The position numbers were made by a program, and so were the translations under genes. A stretch of 64,000 bases of DNA from the NCBI RefSeq assembly GCF_023824315.1, contig NZ_CP098732.1:1860001-1924000 (forward strand). Reading direction: 5' to 3'. Shown one piece after another: positions 36,204 to 43,103 of the stretch. The stretch is from Acinetobacter tibetensis. Its GTDB lineage: Bacteria > Pseudomonadota > Gammaproteobacteria > Pseudomonadales > Moraxellaceae. The notes under the pieces were generated by a model. That model was not told where the DNA came from. It worked only from the letters and a program-made list of their open reading frames with translations, and made no database searches. Every line of letters begins with the position of its first letter. Positions within the stretch are counted from its first letter, which is position 1.

Positions 36204-36290
36204 TGTCTGCTCTTTGCATGAAATTGTGGGATGATATTAATCTTATCACTAAGAGCGTAAAAAATTCATGCCCATCAACACAATTACTAT

Positions 36291-36488
36291 TTATATAATT
36301 TTAAAAATTTTTCCACTTAAAGTACTTTGAAAAAACATTTCAAAACTAGGGCGAATATCTTCACCATCAACGGTGATATGTCTTATATTCGAATGACATT
36401 GTGTATTGGCAAACTGTTGATCCACTGTTGCTTGAATCGTTTGCTTAACCCCAAACTGATCTTTAATGCAAAGACTATGTTTAAACAT
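36291..36488 (-). CDS. Small protein, function unknown
   Basis: The 65-residue protein MFKHSLCIKDQFGVKQTIQA... contains two cysteines and no membrane helix. Its ATG follows GAGGATATATAT, a good ribosome site also seen, as AGGATATA, before the next two minus-strand genes up to cspA. No family recognised; the chance of a spurious frame is moderate. Confidence 0.4.
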   Translation of the reverse strand: MFKHSLCIKDQFGVKQTIQATVDQQFANTQCHSNIRHITVDGEDIRPSFEMFFQSTLSGKIFKII

Positions 36489-36554
36489 ATATATATCCTC
36501 AATAAAATTGTATTAAAAAAAACTTAAATTTATGATGCTTATTAATTATTATCT

Positions 36555-36782
36555 CTAAGAGACTTTATGACTTAATTTAAATAATTGATTTGGAGAAGCG
36601 TAAAATGTACGGCCATCCAAATTCAAATTAACCTCGATCCCAGATTCCAGCAGAACTCTTTTACCGACTTCAATTTGTTTAAAACCTTGACGTGTATTCT
36701 GAATTTTATTGAGGGGAATTAATGAAACAATAATTTCAGTACCATTTTTTGATTTTGCAATTAAATCATTTATTTTTAACAA
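36555..36782 (-). CDS. Small protein with TTG start, function unknown
   Basis: The 75-residue protein MLKINDLIAKSKNGTEIIVS... is polar and probably a small beta barrel (alternating hydrophobic residues, VLLESGIEVNLNLDGRTFYA). The TTG at 36782 is preceded by AGGATATAAG, which supports this start. It lies between cspA and the 65-residue gene on the same strand. No family recognised. Confidence 0.45.
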   Translation of the reverse strand: MLKINDLIAKSKNGTEIIVSLIPLNKIQNTRQGFKQIEVGKRVLLESGIEVNLNLDGRTFYASPNQLFKLSHKVS

Positions 36783-36834
36783 CTTATATCCTATTTTTTA
36801 GAGATCTTTTACTATTGAAAACAAATTTCAAAGT

Positions 36835-36858
36835 ATAAAAAAGCACTCGTAAGTGCTT
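36835..36858 (-). terminator. Terminator of cspA
   Basis: AAGCACT-CGTA-AGTGCTT is followed on the minus strand by T6, 22 bp after the cspA stop. Confidence 0.8.
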
Positions 36859-36879
36859 TTCACCACTGCTTATTATTAC

Positions 36880-37095
36880 TTAGATAGCAACAATATTTAC
36901 AGCATTCGGTCCTTTTTGACCTTGAGCTACACTGAATTCAACTTGCTGGCCTTCAAGTAAGGTTTTGAAACCTGAACTCGCGATCTCGCTGAAATGAGCA
37001 AAAACATCTGGACCTGATTCTTGTTGAATGAAACCAAAACCTTTAGTCTCGTTAAACCACTTAACAGTACCTTTAACAACATTTGAGTTTGACAT
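36880..37095 (-). CDS. cspA: Cold shock protein, CspA family
   Basis: The 71-residue OB-fold protein contains RNP1 KGFGFI and RNP2 VFAHF, with the usual [20 protein letters not shown] start and [10 protein letters not shown] end. It binds single-stranded RNA and DNA as a chaperone. The ATG follows AGGATATATT. The 516-bp upstream gap leaves room for the long leader typical of cold-shock genes. Which member of the family it is cannot be told. Confidence 0.95.
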
Positions 37096-37611
37096 AATAT
37101 ATCCTACTAATTTTTAATAATTTTTAGTCATTTGATTGACTGATTATAACTTTGAAATAATAAAGAATGAGACTTAAAATCTGAAAAAACGAAGGATTAT
37201 GACTAAAACTGCGATACTTAAGGAAGATTTACCGAAACAAGACTTTTTTCTAGTTGAGTTAAATATACACTAAAAACAGAAATAATCAAGTTTTTAAATA
37301 TATATATTTATTATCCTTATAATTAAATTTAAAAAAATCATTAAAAATTATCTTAATTCAATCAGATACAATCATAATTTAATTTTAATTGCCATTAAAT
37401 AAGTTTTATTTGCTCGAATGACTTTTTTAACCTAGTCAATCAATAGGTTTATATAGTTTCATAATGGTGTTAGTTATTCTAATTTTAGAAATGATGTTCG
37501 CCCGATACAAAAAGCTTTTTTGATGTTTTAGCCGCATCTCAACTTTTTAATATCTTGTTTAGAAAACTAGTTAAAGCTGATACATTAAAACTTAAATTAT
37601 AAAAAAACCAG
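37096..37611. other. Divergent intergenic region cspA/lipase
   Basis: 516 bp, very AT-rich. It must hold the cspA promoter and leader and the promoter of the lipase gene. No specific cold-box or hairpin could be assigned by eye. Confidence 0.5.
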
Positions 37612-38826
37612 ATGGATCAACTAATGAAAATTAAATATCCCATTTTACAATTAACGGTAAGCTGCTTATTTTTAGGGTCAACATATACTATAGCCTCCCC
37701 TATATTACCTAATAATAGTAGATACCAAATATCTGATATTGTGAGTAAAAATCCTGGTTCAATATTATCTATACAAGAAGAAAATACAGATCTATTTACA
37801 AATGCTTCACAGCGATTCTTAATCACTTATCATAGCCGTGGAGTGCATTCAGAACCAATTGTAACTTCAGGATATCTCTTACTTCCTAAAGGTAAAGTAC
37901 CTAAAGAAGGTTGGCCTATTCTCGCTTGGGCTCATGGTACAACAGGTGTGGCAGATACTTGTGCTCCGTCTGGAGATTATACTGATGGGCCAGTCCATGT
38001 TTATCAACAAATTGCTGCTAAAGCACTCAATGCTTGGCTCGCTCGTGGATATGCTGTTATCGCACCTGATTATCAAGGTTTAGGCACACCAAGCGGACAT
38101 CCATATATGAATGCTGAAAGTCAGTTGCATACTGTTGTTGATGCTGTCAGAGCAACTCATTATATGAAGCAGTATAAATTTAGTAAAAACTGGTATGTCA
38201 TGGGACATAGTCAAGGAGGTGCTGCATCTCTAAAAGTAGCAGCGGACGGCCCAAAAGATGCACCTGAATTTAATCTACGCGGTGCGATTGCACTCGCACC
38301 AGGTGGCTACCAATATGAGGGAATTGCTGAATATGTTGCAAATAATTCAAAAATTACCACAGATGTTGCTGCTTTTTTTCCAATCGTTCTTCTTGGTGCT
38401 GAGGCCGCAGATCCTAATCTGAATCCAGTAAATCTAGTCAGTCAAGAAATGGAACAAATCCTTAATTATGCACGCAGTCGTTGTTTGTCTGAATTACAAA
38501 CAGATCTGAAGGCTGCACCTAACACTGTATTTAAACCGAATATAAATTTGCAACCTTTAACAAATTATTTGAAAAAACAGTCTATTGAAAATATGACTCC
38601 TACTGTACCGCTACTAATTGTACAAGGTGAGAAAGATCAACTCGTAGATTATCGTGGTACTTATGCTTATTATCAAAAAATATGTGCAAAACAAAAACCT
38701 GTAGCATTTCATCCCATCAAAAATGGCGATCACCGTGATTCTCTGAGACAAAGTGAATTTCTGATTGGAAGCTTTATCAACTCAGTTGAGGATGGTAAAT
38801 CTGTGAATACGTGTTCTTCAAAATAA
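37612..38826 (+). CDS. Secreted lipase/alpha-beta hydrolase
   Basis: A signal peptide (MKIKYPILQLTVSCLFLGST, from the second ATG at 37624) precedes a LIP-type secretory lipase. Oxyanion region WPILAWAHGTTGVADTCAPS; nucleophile elbow VMGHSQGGAA; acid VQGEKDQLVDYRG; His in IKNGDHRDSL. Cysteines at TCAPS, RSRCL and KICAKQ suggest disulfides in the periplasm or outside. Length 404 (400 from the second ATG, which may be the real start; neither has a clear ribosome site). It is followed by an SDR gene 99 bp on. Confidence 0.85.
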   Translation: MDQLMKIKYPILQLTVSCLFLGSTYTIASPILPNNSRYQISDIVSKNPGSILSIQEENTDLFTNASQRFLITYHSRGVHSEPIVTSGYLLLPKGKVPKEGWPILAWAHGTTGVADTCAPSGDYTDGPVHVYQQIAAKALNAWLARGYAVIAPDYQGLGTPSGHPYMNAESQLHTVVDAVRATHYMKQYKFSKNWYVMGHSQGGAASLKVAADGPKDAPEFNLRGAIALAPGGYQYEGIAEYVANNSKITTDVAAFFPIVLLGAEAADPNLNPVNLVSQEMEQILNYARSRCLSELQTDLKAAPNTVFKPNINLQPLTNYLKKQSIENMTPTVPLLIVQGEKDQLVDYRGTYAYYQKICAKQKPVAFHPIKNGDHRDSLRQSEFLIGSFINSVEDGKSVNTCSSK

Positions 38827-38925
38827 TACTTTAGACTCAGTAATTTAAAAGTTTAGAAATACTTATATGAAGACTAAGAAATTAAATAATTCGATTTTTT
38901 AATATAGACGAGGAGATAAATAAAA

Positions 38926-39702
38926 ATGATGTCAGAAAGTTTACTATCATTGAAGGATAAAACTGCCCTTGTAACAGGTGGTGCAGCAGGTATAGGAAAA
39001 GCTAGTGCTCTCATTCTTGCACAATCTGGTGCAAACGTGATGATTGCGGATTTAAATTTAGAAGCCGCTGAAAATACAGCGCAAGAGATCAATAAACTTA
39101 CTGGCGGAAATATAAAATGTGTTGCATGTAATATTCTGCAAGATGATCAACTGGTCAATGCGGTAAATAAAACTATAGAAACCTTTGGTCAAATTCACAT
39201 CTTAGTGAACAATGCTGGGGGTGGCGGTGGTGGCCGTGAATCTCCCAATCAAATTACTGTAGATACAATTGAACGTGATTTTCAGCTCAACGTTTTTGCT
39301 GCTTGGCGATTATGCCAGCTTGTGGCACCACATATGAAGAAAGCTGGTTATGGTTCAATCATAAACATTAGCTCTATGAGTTCAATTAACAAAAGTCCGG
39401 CTATGAGTGGGTATGCATCATCAAAAGCTGCCTTAAACCATATGGTGGCCAATTTGGCACACGATTTGGGTCCTCATATCCGTATCAATGCTATAGGGCC
39501 TGGAGCAATTCGAACAGCCGCATTAGAAACTGTTCTTACGCCTGATATAGAGAAAAGAATGCTTTCTCATACTCCACTATGCCGATTAGGTGAACCTGAA
39601 GATATTGCCAGAGCCGTATTATTCTTTGCCGCACCTATTTCATCTTGGATTTCTGGACAAACATTATTTGTAAATGGTGGCGGTATACAAACACTAGATT
39701 AA
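38926..39702 (+). CDS. SDR-family oxidoreductase
   Basis: This classical short-chain dehydrogenase has NAD(P) motif TALVTGGAAGIGKASAL, NNAGGGGGG, catalytic Ser in IINISSMSS, and YASSKAALNHM (Tyr/Lys). The pattern resembles 7-alpha-hydroxysteroid dehydrogenase and FabG-like enzymes, with the usual NGGGIQTLD end. Length 258. AGGAG lies 10 nt before the ATG at 38926. A terminator follows at 39757. It is probably cotranscribed with the lipase, although no substrate can be proposed. Confidence 0.9.
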   Translation: MMSESLLSLKDKTALVTGGAAGIGKASALILAQSGANVMIADLNLEAAENTAQEINKLTGGNIKCVACNILQDDQLVNAVNKTIETFGQIHILVNNAGGGGGGRESPNQITVDTIERDFQLNVFAAWRLCQLVAPHMKKAGYGSIINISSMSSINKSPAMSGYASSKAALNHMVANLAHDLGPHIRINAIGPGAIRTAALETVLTPDIEKRMLSHTPLCRLGEPEDIARAVLFFAAPISSWISGQTLFVNGGGIQTLD

Positions 39703-39756
39703 ATTCAGATTTCAAACCATATTACAAAGCACTTATTTCACGCAAAAGTACCAATA

Positions 39757-39783
39757 CAAAAGCTCTCATTTCGAGAGCTTTTG
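39757..39783. terminator. Terminator after the SDR gene
   Basis: CAAAAGCTCTC-ATTTC-GAGAGCTTTTG is a perfect 11-bp stem with A/T flanks, able to serve the SDR gene and the convergent roadblock gene. Confidence 0.85.
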
Positions 39784-39855
39784 ATAAACTTTATTCATTT
39801 AAATGAATAAAAATTGCCGCAGTATTATTAACTAGACTTCCTTTTAACACTAAAT

Positions 39856-40212
39856 CTAAGAAAAATCTAATTCCTTTTCAAATGCTTTTAGTTCAAAGCG
39901 GGCCATAGCTAAATTTGATTTAGAACGATCTAAAACTAAATACAAGAACAAGTTATGGTTGCTTTCAAGAGGTCTGATTAAATGATATTACTTACCTAAA
40001 GTAATTAAAATATCTTCAATATTATCATTTAATTGTAGAGCTTTCGCTACTTTACGTTTCGCGCGAATGACTTCTGTATTACCTGCTGCTGCAAGTTCTA
40101 AATCTATCGTGGTTCCTTGAACAGCTAAAGCCAGACCACTCTCACTATCGACCAATGCTGTTGCAATAAAACCATCTATACAAGTTAAACGTTCTAAAGC
40201 TATACGAGCCAT
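39856..40212 (-). pseudogene. Roadblock/LC7 protein gene interrupted by an in-frame TAA
   Basis: The frame reads MARIALERLTCIDGFIATAL ... NIEDILITLGK, then TAA at 39988-39990. It then continues in the same frame as [20 protein letters not shown] and ends [19 protein letters not shown] before a TAG at 39856-39858. Without the TAA it would be a 118-codon roadblock/LC7 protein; such proteins are partners or activators of Ras-like GTPases (MglB in Myxococcus). The truncated 74-residue product would lack the last two beta strands and helix. It lies 45 bp after the 317-residue gene and belongs with the GTPase gene upstream. Confidence 0.7.
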
Positions 40213-40257
40213 ATTACTTTCTACCTCAAATTAAGAGTTTCTTGAGGAAATATTGAT

Positions 40258-41211
40258 TTAAAGACCTAATTTTTTACGTAGTTTCATAAAAAAACTGCGA
40301 ACTTTAATCATCTGACCTTCATCAATTGATTCATCGCTTCTCATGAATTTAGCTTCATGAGAGTCAATCCATGAACCCATTTTGAGCATATGGGAAAGTG
40401 CAACAAAGCGGATAATCTGTTGTCTTGGAATCTTTAATTGATCAATTACCGTTTTAATCTGAGCACCTTGGGCAAAACATGAAGCAATTTTTAATAGCTT
40501 TCGACGCTCATAGCCTGACTCAAATTTTGGCCAGAACTCCAGTTTAAAATATTGATTAATCTCTATCTCTGGAATATCTAAGTCACTAGAGTGATAACCC
40601 ATCTGCCACAACCAGCTACGTAAATCCTGAGCATCTAAGTTTTTCATCGTTTCTTGAGCAAATTGATTTGTGACATAGGTTTGATTCAGACTTTTATCAA
40701 AAAAAGTTATAGGATAATCAGTGCTTACCCACACTCGCTCCGTCATGGTATCAACTAAGGCCAAAAAACCTCGATAATCAAATAACTGTATAAAACCATT
40801 ATAAGCCAATAAACATTGATCCAGTACAGTTGAAATTGATACTTCTAAAGTTGTTGGCTTTAAATAAAGATTATCATATGGTTCATAATCAAAGAATTTT
40901 TCTTGCAGCCATTCGCGCAAATCATCTGACTTGGTTACAGGATATGATAAGGTGTCCCCTACAATTATTCCCTGCTTTTCTGGGACTTTAATCAGACGTA
41001 AATACTGCACATTAATATGAGCGAGAATTTTCTGGATAGTGAATGAAGAAAAAAAAGCATCATTAATCATGAGGAGATCAATGTTTTTATCAGCGATATT
41101 CACCCAACGCACCATCACTTTATCAGGGACTGCTAATAGTATTTGGCTTTTAAGTTGGTCAAGCACATTCAGGCTTATCCCGAATACAGCAATATTTAAA
41201 AACTTTTTCAT
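40258..41211 (-). CDS. Protein of unknown function in a GTPase/roadblock set
   Basis: The 317-residue protein has an N-terminal alpha/beta segment (KKFLNIAVFGISLNVLDQLK, DKNIDLLMINDAFF) that recalls a degenerate receiver or Rossmann fold. A middle part follows (LKPTTLEVSISTVLDQCLLA, GFIQLFDYRGFLALVDTMTE). The C-terminal region (KIASCFAQGAQIKTVIDQLK, PRQQIIRFVALSHML) has helix-turn-helix character, seen at the end of some PatA/DUF4388-type proteins. It sits between the GTPase and roadblock genes on the same strand, so it may be an effector of the GTPase. No named family recognised. Confidence 0.6.
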   Translation of the reverse strand: MKKFLNIAVFGISLNVLDQLKSQILLAVPDKVMVRWVNIADKNIDLLMINDAFFSSFTIQKILAHINVQYLRLIKVPEKQGIIVGDTLSYPVTKSDDLREWLQEKFFDYEPYDNLYLKPTTLEVSISTVLDQCLLAYNGFIQLFDYRGFLALVDTMTERVWVSTDYPITFFDKSLNQTYVTNQFAQETMKNLDAQDLRSWLWQMGYHSSDLDIPEIEINQYFKLEFWPKFESGYERRKLLKIASCFAQGAQIKTVIDQLKIPRQQIIRFVALSHMLKMGSWIDSHEAKFMRSDESIDEGQMIKVRSFFMKLRKKLGL

Positions 41212-41311
41212 ACTCTAACCACATTAAGCTAGGTGTCATTACAATAGACAATTAATTACTTTAATAAAAAATATCTATCCATTTATTTCGACAAAAGATT
41301 CAGATGCTTTT

Positions 41312-41340
41312 TTGACTTGATATCTGATTTAACCTATAAA
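41312..41340 (+). promoter_or_regulatory. Near-consensus sigma-70 promoter reading rightward
   Basis: TTGACT (41312-41317) and TATAAA (41335-41340) are 17 bp apart. The direction is away from the 317-residue gene and toward the 3' end of the GTPase gene, so it would make an antisense or small RNA; no plus-strand gene follows. Confidence 0.5.
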
Positions 41341-41358
41341 AATATCAAGTGAACCTAC

Positions 41359-41377
41359 TGCAATCATTATCATTGCA
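41359..41377. promoter_or_regulatory. Fur-like palindrome
   Basis: TGCAATCATTATCATTGCA is a 19-bp inverted repeat. The centre matches the core of the Fur box (GATAATGATAATCATTATC) at 12 of 19 positions. It lies about 12-30 bp past the start expected from the rightward promoter, and about 150 bp upstream of the 317-residue gene. The binder is not proven. Confidence 0.4.
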
Positions 41378-41491
41378 AAGTGCGTATATTCAACCTCAGT
41401 TAACACCACATATTCATTCTCTAGCAGATTTCAATCAAGGGGTGAAGAATCTGGCATGAATGTATATAGATATTTACTTTGATTTCATTTT

Positions 41492-42034
41492 TTAAAGCAT
41501 TTCAACGATTCGGGTTTCAACAGCGGTAATTAAGACCTCTACTAAAAGTAAGACGTCATCATTTTGTCTAGCATCAACAGCAAATAAAGGATAGCTATAG
41601 TGATGTAAAGTCATCCATTCTCTATAAATTTTGAGCATCTGATCCACGTGTTGATCGAGATGTGTAATGCCTATGACTATATTTTCACTGTAGCTTCGAA
41701 ATGCATTGATATAAGTTTGTAATTCTTGCAAACGCTCATGATTCGAATGATCAATTAAAATAGCAACACCAAGTGCGCCTTTGCAGACAATTGGCCACAT
41801 AAAATCAAATCGATCTTGCCCAGGAGTACCATAGAGTCCAATTTTGGTATTATCCTCAAGCACTATTTCGCCATAATCGATCCCTACCGTAGTGGAGTAT
41901 TTACTATGTCTATTGACGTCAGTATTAAGTGCTTCCGTTTCTATTACTGGAATATCTGAGAGTGTTTTAATAGCTGCAGACTTTCCAGCCCCCATACTCC
42001 CACCAAAAACAATTTTATATTGCTGTAAAACCAT
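41492..42034 (-). CDS. Ras-like small GTPase (MglA/CvnD-type)
   Basis: The 180-residue protein shows all G motifs: P-loop GGSMGAGKSAAI (G1), TTVGIDYGEI (G2 Thr), GLYGTPGQDRFDF (G3), GITHLDQHV (G4). The PGQ version of G3 and the THLD version of G4 match bacterial small GTPases of conserved conservon operons (CvnD) and MglA rather than translation GTPases. Such proteins work with roadblock partners in polarity, motility or signalling. It is the first gene of a minus-strand set with the 317-residue protein and the roadblock gene. AGAGAAGAG precedes the ATG. Confidence 0.85.
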   Translation of the reverse strand: MVLQQYKIVFGGSMGAGKSAAIKTLSDIPVIETEALNTDVNRHSKYSTTVGIDYGEIVLEDNTKIGLYGTPGQDRFDFMWPIVCKGALGVAILIDHSNHERLQELQTYINAFRSYSENIVIGITHLDQHVDQMLKIYREWMTLHHYSYPLFAVDARQNDDVLLLVEVLITAVETRIVEML

Positions 42035-42473
42035 ATATGTACTCTTCTCTTAAAGATTTAATAAAGTTTTAAATGAATTGTATTAGGTGGCTTTAAAACT
42101 AAATTAGACACAATTTAAGGCTATATTTAATTAATTACTTTCAACTAGTAATTTAAATAAATAAATGCTTAGTGAATTCTCTAGCCATCATCACTTTTCT
42201 AAATAGAACTTACGATTACATGTGTGAACAAATTGTGAATTTGATTGATATTTCAATTATTTATTTGATTATCAATGATATATATCCAGTATTTTTTATT
42301 TTTAAGTATAAATTAAAAATATTTTTAGGATAAGTACAATTAATTACAATTGAAGCGAGTGAATAATAATTATTTTTCAATTTAACAGAAATGGATCATA
42401 AGTACGGCTCAATATTTGAACTTTTCATAAGGCAATTAATATTGGCATTAACATTTATTAATTTTTAGTAAAG
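42035..42473. other. AT-rich junction between GTPase gene and prophage late genes
   Basis: 439 bp of very AT-rich sequence. It should include the GTPase promoter and possibly the left attachment site of the prophage, but no duplicated att sequence can be seen from one side only. No RNA gene or terminator was recognised. Confidence 0.5.
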
Positions 42474-43103
42474 TTACTCAACTTTCAAAAATAATGCTTT
42501 CTCTTTAGCTCGTCGATTTACTAATCCCTTGATCTTTTTACCATTGTCATACACCCAACGATCAAATTGTAATGCTGCAGCTTTTAAATCACCTTTATTG
42601 ATCAAAGTCAGCATAGTGCTTTTCATAAAAGCTATCTCACCCACGTTATAGATAAAGCTTACCAGTGCATCAAACTGATTTTGATTGATCGTGACCTTCA
42701 CGTATTTATCTAGGCAAGCATCAACCCATTGGCTATCATTTTTAAGCCAAAGCTCTGCTTGACATTGGGTGCAAGTATCACCTTTCTTAACCTTGGTGCC
42801 ATTTGGATACTTAATCGTGCCATAGCCTATGGTCCATACCGCTCCAGTATCGAGATAGGCACTTGCTCGAAACCCCTCAAACTCTCGAATAATTGCAAAG
42901 CCCTGCTCTGAAATATCGCGTAAGCTGGTAACTACTGGGGTGGTTGGTAAAGAGTAGCCTATTAGCTTGGCAAATTCGCTAAGTCCATTGGTGGCAATAA
43001 TGGCGTCACCAGCATTGACCTGATCTTGAGTGAGCTTTCCACCCGACATAGCACGAAGCCATGAATATGCTTGAGCGATTTGTTCTGAATGATTTACTGT
43101 CAT
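42474..43103 (-). CDS. Phage lysozyme/endolysin, GH24
   Basis: This muramidase cleaves the peptidoglycan glycan strand at the end of the lytic cycle. The catalytic triad is in IREFEGFRASAYLDTGAVWT followed by IGYGT (Glu, Asp and Thr of the T4/P22 lysozyme family, residues about 75-100). The C-terminus is DRWVYDNGKKIKGLVNRRAKE. About 65 residues precede the catalytic domain (YSWLRAMSGGKLTQDQVNAG), more than in P22-type lysozymes, and could be a regulatory or cell-wall module. No signal anchor is seen, so release needs the holin. Confidence 0.92.
   Translation of the reverse strand: MTVNHSEQIAQAYSWLRAMSGGKLTQDQVNAGDAIIATNGLSEFAKLIGYSLPTTPVVTSLRDISEQGFAIIREFEGFRASAYLDTGAVWTIGYGTIKYPNGTKVKKGDTCTQCQAELWLKNDSQWVDACLDKYVKVTINQNQFDALVSFIYNVGEIAFMKSTMLTLINKGDLKAAALQFDRWVYDNGKKIKGLVNRRAKEKALFLKVE

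Follow-up and report, generated by a model that had tools for sequence, protein, structure and literature searches.

The genome of Acinetobacter tibetensis carries three modules built around an MglA-type small GTPase, and the copy in the window (the whole 64-kb stretch of DNA analysed here) is decaying: both of its roadblock genes are lost, while the genes for the GTPase and for its 317-aa partner, X, are intact. The presence of three such modules in one genome and the decay of the window copy are both new here.

Gene content and decay of the window module

The window module consists of the following features, all on the minus strand:

41492..42034 (-): MglA-type small GTPase, 180 aa (Ras PF00071 match of 24.0 bits, cut-off 21.6, plus motifs)
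41281..41421 (-): remnant of RB2, an MglB-like roadblock gene (tblastn with RB2 of sister loci)
40258..41211 (-): partner X, 317 aa (open reading frame and predicted domain structure)
39988..40212 (-): roadblock-like gene RB1, 74 aa (in-frame TAA at 39988-39990)
39859..39987 (-): continuation of the RB1 frame past the stop (alignable to intact RB1 genes of relatives)
42035..42442 (-): upstream region common to A. tandoii (similarity stops at 42442; the stop codon of a phage lysozyme gene follows 32 bp further on)

A previous sequence-only reading had described a small GTPase with GSMGAGKS, GTPGQD and THLD motifs, and all three are found in 41492-42034 on the minus strand, as part of a complete motif set (G1 GGSMGAGKS, G2 STTVGID, G3 GTPGQ, G4 ITHLD, G5 VDAR). 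The receiver-like start and HTH-like end that it assigned to the 317-aa protein likewise agree with the receiver-like N-terminal and winged-helix C-terminal domains that we found. The roadblock gene it listed is present downstream of X, but its supposed end at 39856 reads through the in-frame TAA, and the encoded product has 74 aa. The three proposed genes and their grouping into one module are confirmed, but the 280-bp gap between the GTPase and X genes holds the RB2 remnant, and the set is not alone in the genome. The nearest neighbours of the module encode a short-chain dehydrogenase, a lipase-like hydrolase and the phage lysozyme; a promoter scan gave 11 sites against a mean of 13.5 in shuffled sequences, i.e., no excess.

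Searching the same genome with X returned three matches (itself, one at 47% and one at 28% identity), and the GTPase and RB1 also have three matches each. We refer to the corresponding modules as A (window), B (L002) and C (L003). Their gene order differs, with GTPase-(RB2)-X-RB1 in the window and RB1-X-GTPase-RB2 in module C. Within this genome, RB2 is intact in module C only (PF03259, E = 1.2e-9) and fragmentary in A and B. The A. tandoii counterpart of module C is located behind rplM, rpsI, an SspA-like gene, sspB and a gene of 218 aa that has no family assignment.

The content of the window gap corresponds to the last third of RB2, with its stop. Comparison with RB2 of the sister loci gave E = 3e-15 at 54% identity (tblastn) and, in a second search, E = 1.6e-7; the remnant covers model positions 90-136 of 140, contains one TAA and is missing its front part. 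RB1 is open for 74 codons, followed by TAA, and its frame is alignable to full-length RB1 down to 39859 (81% identity to the module B copy, with a single TAA inside). Because relatives of RB1 match Robl_LC7 (PF03259; 10 of 22 at E ≤ 0.1, best 2.7e-4), we tentatively assign it as a roadblock-like gene, although the truncated 74-aa product alone matches no Pfam family at E ≤ 1. Among intact RB2 relatives, 21 of 22 match the same family at E ≤ 0.001 (best 1.2e-9), and a profile comparison between RB1 and RB2 found no similarity (probability 0.4%).

The order of these losses can be read from related loci. Seven sister A-type loci (L007, L008, L037-L041) are all ordered GTPase-RB2-X-RB1. An eighth, that of A. 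tandoii (L036), is the exception: it has a matching RB2 remnant together with an intact RB1. Therefore, RB2 had already been lost when the two lineages separated, and the stop in RB1 arose afterwards. The DNA alignment of the window with A. tandoii has 91.8% identity. Separately, silent divergence between the two is low in RB1-A, with a dS of 0.08 against 0.39 in the neighbouring GTPase (39859-40212 vs L036 5957-6310), which could mean local recombination or gene conversion.

We computed dN/dS (NG86) between this genome and A. tandoii for each module. The values are 0.117 (GTPase), 0.205 (X) and 0.086 (RB1, stop codon excluded) for module A; 0.043, 0.128 and 0.078, respectively, for module B; and 0.042, 0.083 and 0.0, with 0.035 for RB2, for module C. 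Thus, the GTPase and X genes of module A are open and constrained, but 2.5 to 2.8 times less so than those of module C. Past its stop, RB1 has 43 codons with 4 differences from A. tandoii, a number too small to judge constraint.

A prophage occupies window positions 42443-64000 and beyond, and its lysozyme gene (42474-43103) adjoins the module, which had led to the suggestion that the module was affected by it. This suggestion is not borne out. The A. tandoii alignment is unbroken from 36280 to 42442 and extends 408 bp past the GTPase start on its upstream side, and A. tandoii shows the same MglB loss without adjoining phage sequence; we therefore see no sign that the prophage caused the gene damage. 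No exact direct repeat of at least 16 bases links window positions 42000-42700 with 44001-100000 (window frame), and the 64-kb window contains no tRNA genes. Past the break, a 1.6-kb stretch from A. tandoii (L036 2200-3800) matched the A. tibetensis genome only over the 79-base end of the known overlap.

Roadblock genes across the genus

We surveyed 119 genomes of the genus with one profile for each of the four genes (E ≤ 1e-30 for the GTPase, 1e-4 for RB2, and 1e-6 for both RB1 and X). Neighbours beyond contig ends would be missed. A module was defined as an intact GTPase match with an X match within 2.5 kb, and a roadblock gene was called intact if an open frame covered at least 85% of the model. 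Some match was present in 79 of the 119 genomes, and 73 genomes carry 117 modules. By open frames, both roadblock genes are intact in 74 modules, RB2 only in 9, RB1 only in 4 and neither in 30 (a first pass by match list gave 72, 11, 4 and 30). As such, 87 of the 117 GTPase-X clusters have at least one intact adjacent roadblock gene, and this co-occurrence upholds the view of the sequence-only reading that the three genes form one system related to MglA/MglB and conservons.

An adjacent intact RB2, the MglB-like gene, is missing in 34 of the 117 modules, and 32 of these 34 lie in genomes that keep an RB2 elsewhere, a distribution that is new here. The two exceptions are G505 (64% complete) and G436. 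RB2 is adjacent in 31 of 33 modules from single-module genomes and in 52 of 84 from multi-module genomes, and all 40 multi-module genomes keep at least one RB2; for this count, RB2 matches were taken as intact unless partial, and two unlinked ones with an internal stop (in G454 and G084) are in genomes that have another RB2. The difference between single- and multi-module genomes gives p = 0.0005 in a Fisher test, with the rows being related. On the GTPase tree (116 rows, 33 without RB2), the presence of RB2 changes at least 7 times, and an ancestry-aware comparison yields 4 independent pairs on starred branches, with which a sign test is unable to reach 0.05. The survey counts therefore do not separate ancestry from cause in the association of RB2 loss with multi-copy genomes. 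In addition, since modules were defined by an intact GTPase and an X match, better retention of these two genes than of RB2 is not provable by the survey. One starred pair on the tree joins window module A with L106, and another starred set joins module B of the same genome with L105 and L107 (L105 and L106 come from G503, taken as A. tandoii).

The GTPase is uniform across the genus, with GTPGQ and Thr-Thr in G2 in 116 of 116 module GTPases; one locus, L122, was left out of these later counts because its G2 and G3 motifs are missing. At that locus (G436 C1:949115-952487), a full X gene stands beside a GTPase-like gene in which ITPIL replaces GTPGQ, and a profile search found no RB2 or RB1 match in the G436 genome. 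X is shorter than 290 aa in one frame in 9 of the 117 modules: two are open with an insert, one runs into the end of its contig, and the other six are fragments or split genes.

Roadblock genes also occur apart from the modules. RB2-RB1 pairs unlinked to X-GTPase form 11 clusters in the genus, so some of its members must already rely on action in trans. A diverged solitary RB1 relative is found in 11 of the 119 genomes (e.g., G482 C1:381339-381677; E = 4e-21 to 2e-27), and nothing else of the system lies within 2.5 kb of it. A tandem RB1 pair lies beside one module (L015 4-881, minus strand), and another away from modules in G454.

Of 274 genomes of the class, this one included, 46 encode such a GTPase (E ≤ 1e-15). 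Across 29 loci of other genomes (L073-L101), X-like and RB2-like frames stand beside the GTPase on its strand in 23; in L075, L077, L080, L081, L084 and L085 an X-like or RB2-like frame is missing within the 2-3.5 kb examined. Nine X relatives of other genomes have open frames of 329-469 aa. Four loci of other genera (L076, L079, L082, L090) have an extra open frame of 218-237 aa between the GTPase and roadblock genes, and in L076 a frame that appears PAS-like by eye follows the set.

Altogether, the genus offers a natural gene-removal series that runs from complete modules through those lacking MglB to X-GTPase pairs alone. A comparison of its members can reveal which component acts as the switch, whether different switches share roadblock proteins in trans, and whether X acts on DNA or at the membrane.

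The partner X and readings of the GTPase-X pair

The window X has no Pfam match. A structure model and alignments divide it into a predicted pseudo-receiver (1-106), an alpha/beta middle (126-206), a winged helix (about 212-284), a low-confidence linker and a basic amphipathic helix (298-314). The reading of X as a pseudo-receiver and winged helix with a conserved basic amphipathic tail is new here. Across the 108 Acinetobacter X proteins longer than 290 aa, the 13-residue tail carries a net charge of +3 to +6 in every one. In the receiver, none of the 108 proteins has an acidic residue at positions 10-13, the end of strand 1; Asp is present at position 51 in 34 of them, including the window X; and Pro 91 is invariant (108/108), with Lys before it in none (0/108). 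Lacking both the acidic pair after strand 1 and the Lys before the cis-Pro, X was rejected as a phosphorylatable response regulator.

Passages of Wuichet and Sogaard-Andersen (2014, PMC4316618) propose that the corresponding protein is a DNA-binding response regulator, in which case the module would control transcription. The receiver-like and winged-helix architecture of X is in keeping with this proposal, as is the alignment of X relatives from other gammaproteobacteria, where many sequences have the Lys-Pro pair and Asp residues close to the phospho-site; the receiver of X may have been active in an ancestor. However, the Acinetobacter proteins have the altered receiver described above, and their recognition helix has a mean net charge of only +0.33 over the 108 sequences, with hydrophobic residues at its conserved positions. 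In addition, the winged helix is structurally closest, by a weak match, to subunits of GTPase-regulating complexes. This pattern of charge and conservation makes DNA binding by X possible but disfavoured, and we regard it as unlikely. Instead, the combination of pseudo-receiver, winged helix and conserved basic amphipathic tail favours X as a membrane-linked GTPase partner over X as a transcription factor. That X is a read-out of the GTPase state, as suggested from the sequence alone, is possible.

The structural neighbours also allow a bolder reading, the boldest that we consider for X. They are SEA/GATOR1 subunits, probably Npr2/Npr3 judging from chain length and passages of PMC3521125, and they match at 7-8% identity with a Z typical of common arrangements, in a list whose best Foldseek E is 0.085. 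The X family would then regulate MglA-type GTPases, or act as their effector, while anchored to the membrane by its basic amphipathic tail. As the bacterial equivalent of the GATOR1 winged-helix subunits, and not a transcription factor, it could run the GTPase cycle without a local MglB, and for this reason MglB could be lost repeatedly with the GTPase and X still paired. Npr2/Npr3 combine a longin domain with winged helices; for X, the likeness consists of a weakly matching winged helix, with a longin domain not shown. We consider this reading distinctly unlikely.

For module A as a whole, we lean towards a reduced Group 3 MglA derivative in which the GTPase and X are the working core and roadblock help comes in trans. 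The ancestral module would have been GTPase-RB2-X-RB1; RB2 presumably disappeared ahead of the divergence from A. tandoii, and the truncation of RB1 followed. GTPase-A and X-A would have been retained, with the GTPase as a GTP/GDP switch and X as a partner dedicated to it, probably at the membrane, that senses or sets which nucleotide is bound. The orphaned GTPase-A would probably be helped in hydrolysing GTP or exchanging its nucleotide by the roadblock proteins of module C, above all RB2-C, and by RB1 of module B. Such sharing in trans appears to be the likeliest mechanism, and it is supported by the finding that nearly all modules without an adjacent RB2 (32 of 34) have one elsewhere in the genome. 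By analogy with Snodgrassella, the cellular output may be surface motility or type IV pili.

Plain decay of a spare copy is ranked close behind this trans-sharing pair of switch and partner, although taken on its own we find it doubtful. Here, module A would be a dying redundant cluster without a function of its own, losing its genes one by one, with the GTPase and X next. Two of its four genes are already lost, its dN/dS values exceed those of module C, and decayed modules exist elsewhere, such as an X gene interrupted by stops (G482), split X genes (G457, G488) and a module with broken RB1, X and GTPase (G509). The weaker constraint on A than on C counts against a working core, because weaker constraint is what a module disappearing as a whole would show. 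Against decay, however, GTPase-A and X-A are full length with the GTPase motifs kept and dN/dS well below 1, and a starred set of 14 modules, all consisting of X-GTPase alone, has persisted long enough to diversify. We also considered that an error in sequencing or assembly produced the RB1 stop, with the module in better shape than it appears. The frame is otherwise intact past the stop (excluding the stop codon, its 117 codons differ from A. tandoii at 8 nucleotides), and one assembly of the species was examined; but this assembly consists of 2 contigs and is 99.98% complete, and the loss of RB2, being common to A. tandoii, is unaffected by any such error. We judge it very unlikely.

Comparison with known MglA systems

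According to passages of Wuichet and Sogaard-Andersen (2014, PMC4316618), Group 3 MglA systems comprise an MglA-type GTPase, typically one or two MglB/roadblock proteins and one protein of unknown function. The latter has a receiver-like N-terminus and a winged-helix-like C-terminus, for which a transcriptional output was suggested and whose role is left open there; the systems are found in beta- and gammaproteobacteria, including pathogens. The claim that the third partner is not a known member of such modules therefore falls: a protein of X architecture belongs to Group 3, and the kind of module is already known, though little studied. Our search of the open-access literature returned nothing on an Acinetobacter small GTPase with a roadblock protein or on an LC7 domain in Acinetobacter, and no gammaproteobacterial operon with a small GTPase, a roadblock protein and a response regulator; in one review retrieved for Acinetobacter twitching, the word 'roadblock' appears within the title of a cited reference; judged by title and abstract start, bacterial winged-helix partners of roadblock/MglB proteins were found only in PMC4316618.

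Other MglA-type systems fit less well. Group 1 (Myxococcus, Thermus) was rejected, since it has TVPGQ in G3 and an intrinsic Arg in G2, whereas the window GTPase has GTPGQ and Thr-Thr. Actinobacterial conservons (CvnA-D), as passages of PMC13343842 and PMC4316618 describe them, resemble the Acinetobacter modules in combining an MglA-type GTPase, an MglB-type roadblock protein and a protein of unknown function in one operon, and the RB2 profile matches the conservon protein CvnB5 (3leq, E = 4e-4). They differ in having a kinase and a DUF742 protein, in contrast to the pseudo-receiver in X. DUF742 (PF05331, CvnC) has no match in the whole genome at E ≤ 0.001 and none among the matches of 16 X relatives, and the neighbours scanned at the window locus include no CvnA-type sensor kinase; a conservon (Group 2) identity was rejected on these grounds.

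A closer parallel is the Snodgrassella mgl operon, which passages of Meng et al. (2024, PMC11112851) assign to Group 3 and describe as one mglA, two coupled mglB and one orphan mglB, with alleles of the orphan linked to changed colony edges on soft agar and to gut competition and host colonisation. That system pairs one GTPase with an orphan MglB, whereas the window has a GTPase-X pair without MglB. Compared with Group 3 as described in the passages cited above, the window locus has the same MglA GTPGQ, the same Thr replacing the G2 Arg and the same receiver-like/winged-helix partner, and its sister modules have MglB-like genes. It differs in that it has no intact MglB, with the second roadblock gene truncated, and in that the genome holds three modules. 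Adjacent MglB homologs, a Group 3 feature, are thus absent from the window copy, although both are present in sister loci L037-L041. Therefore, going by its motifs and partner architecture, we class the window locus as a reduced derivative of Group 3 and not as a full system.
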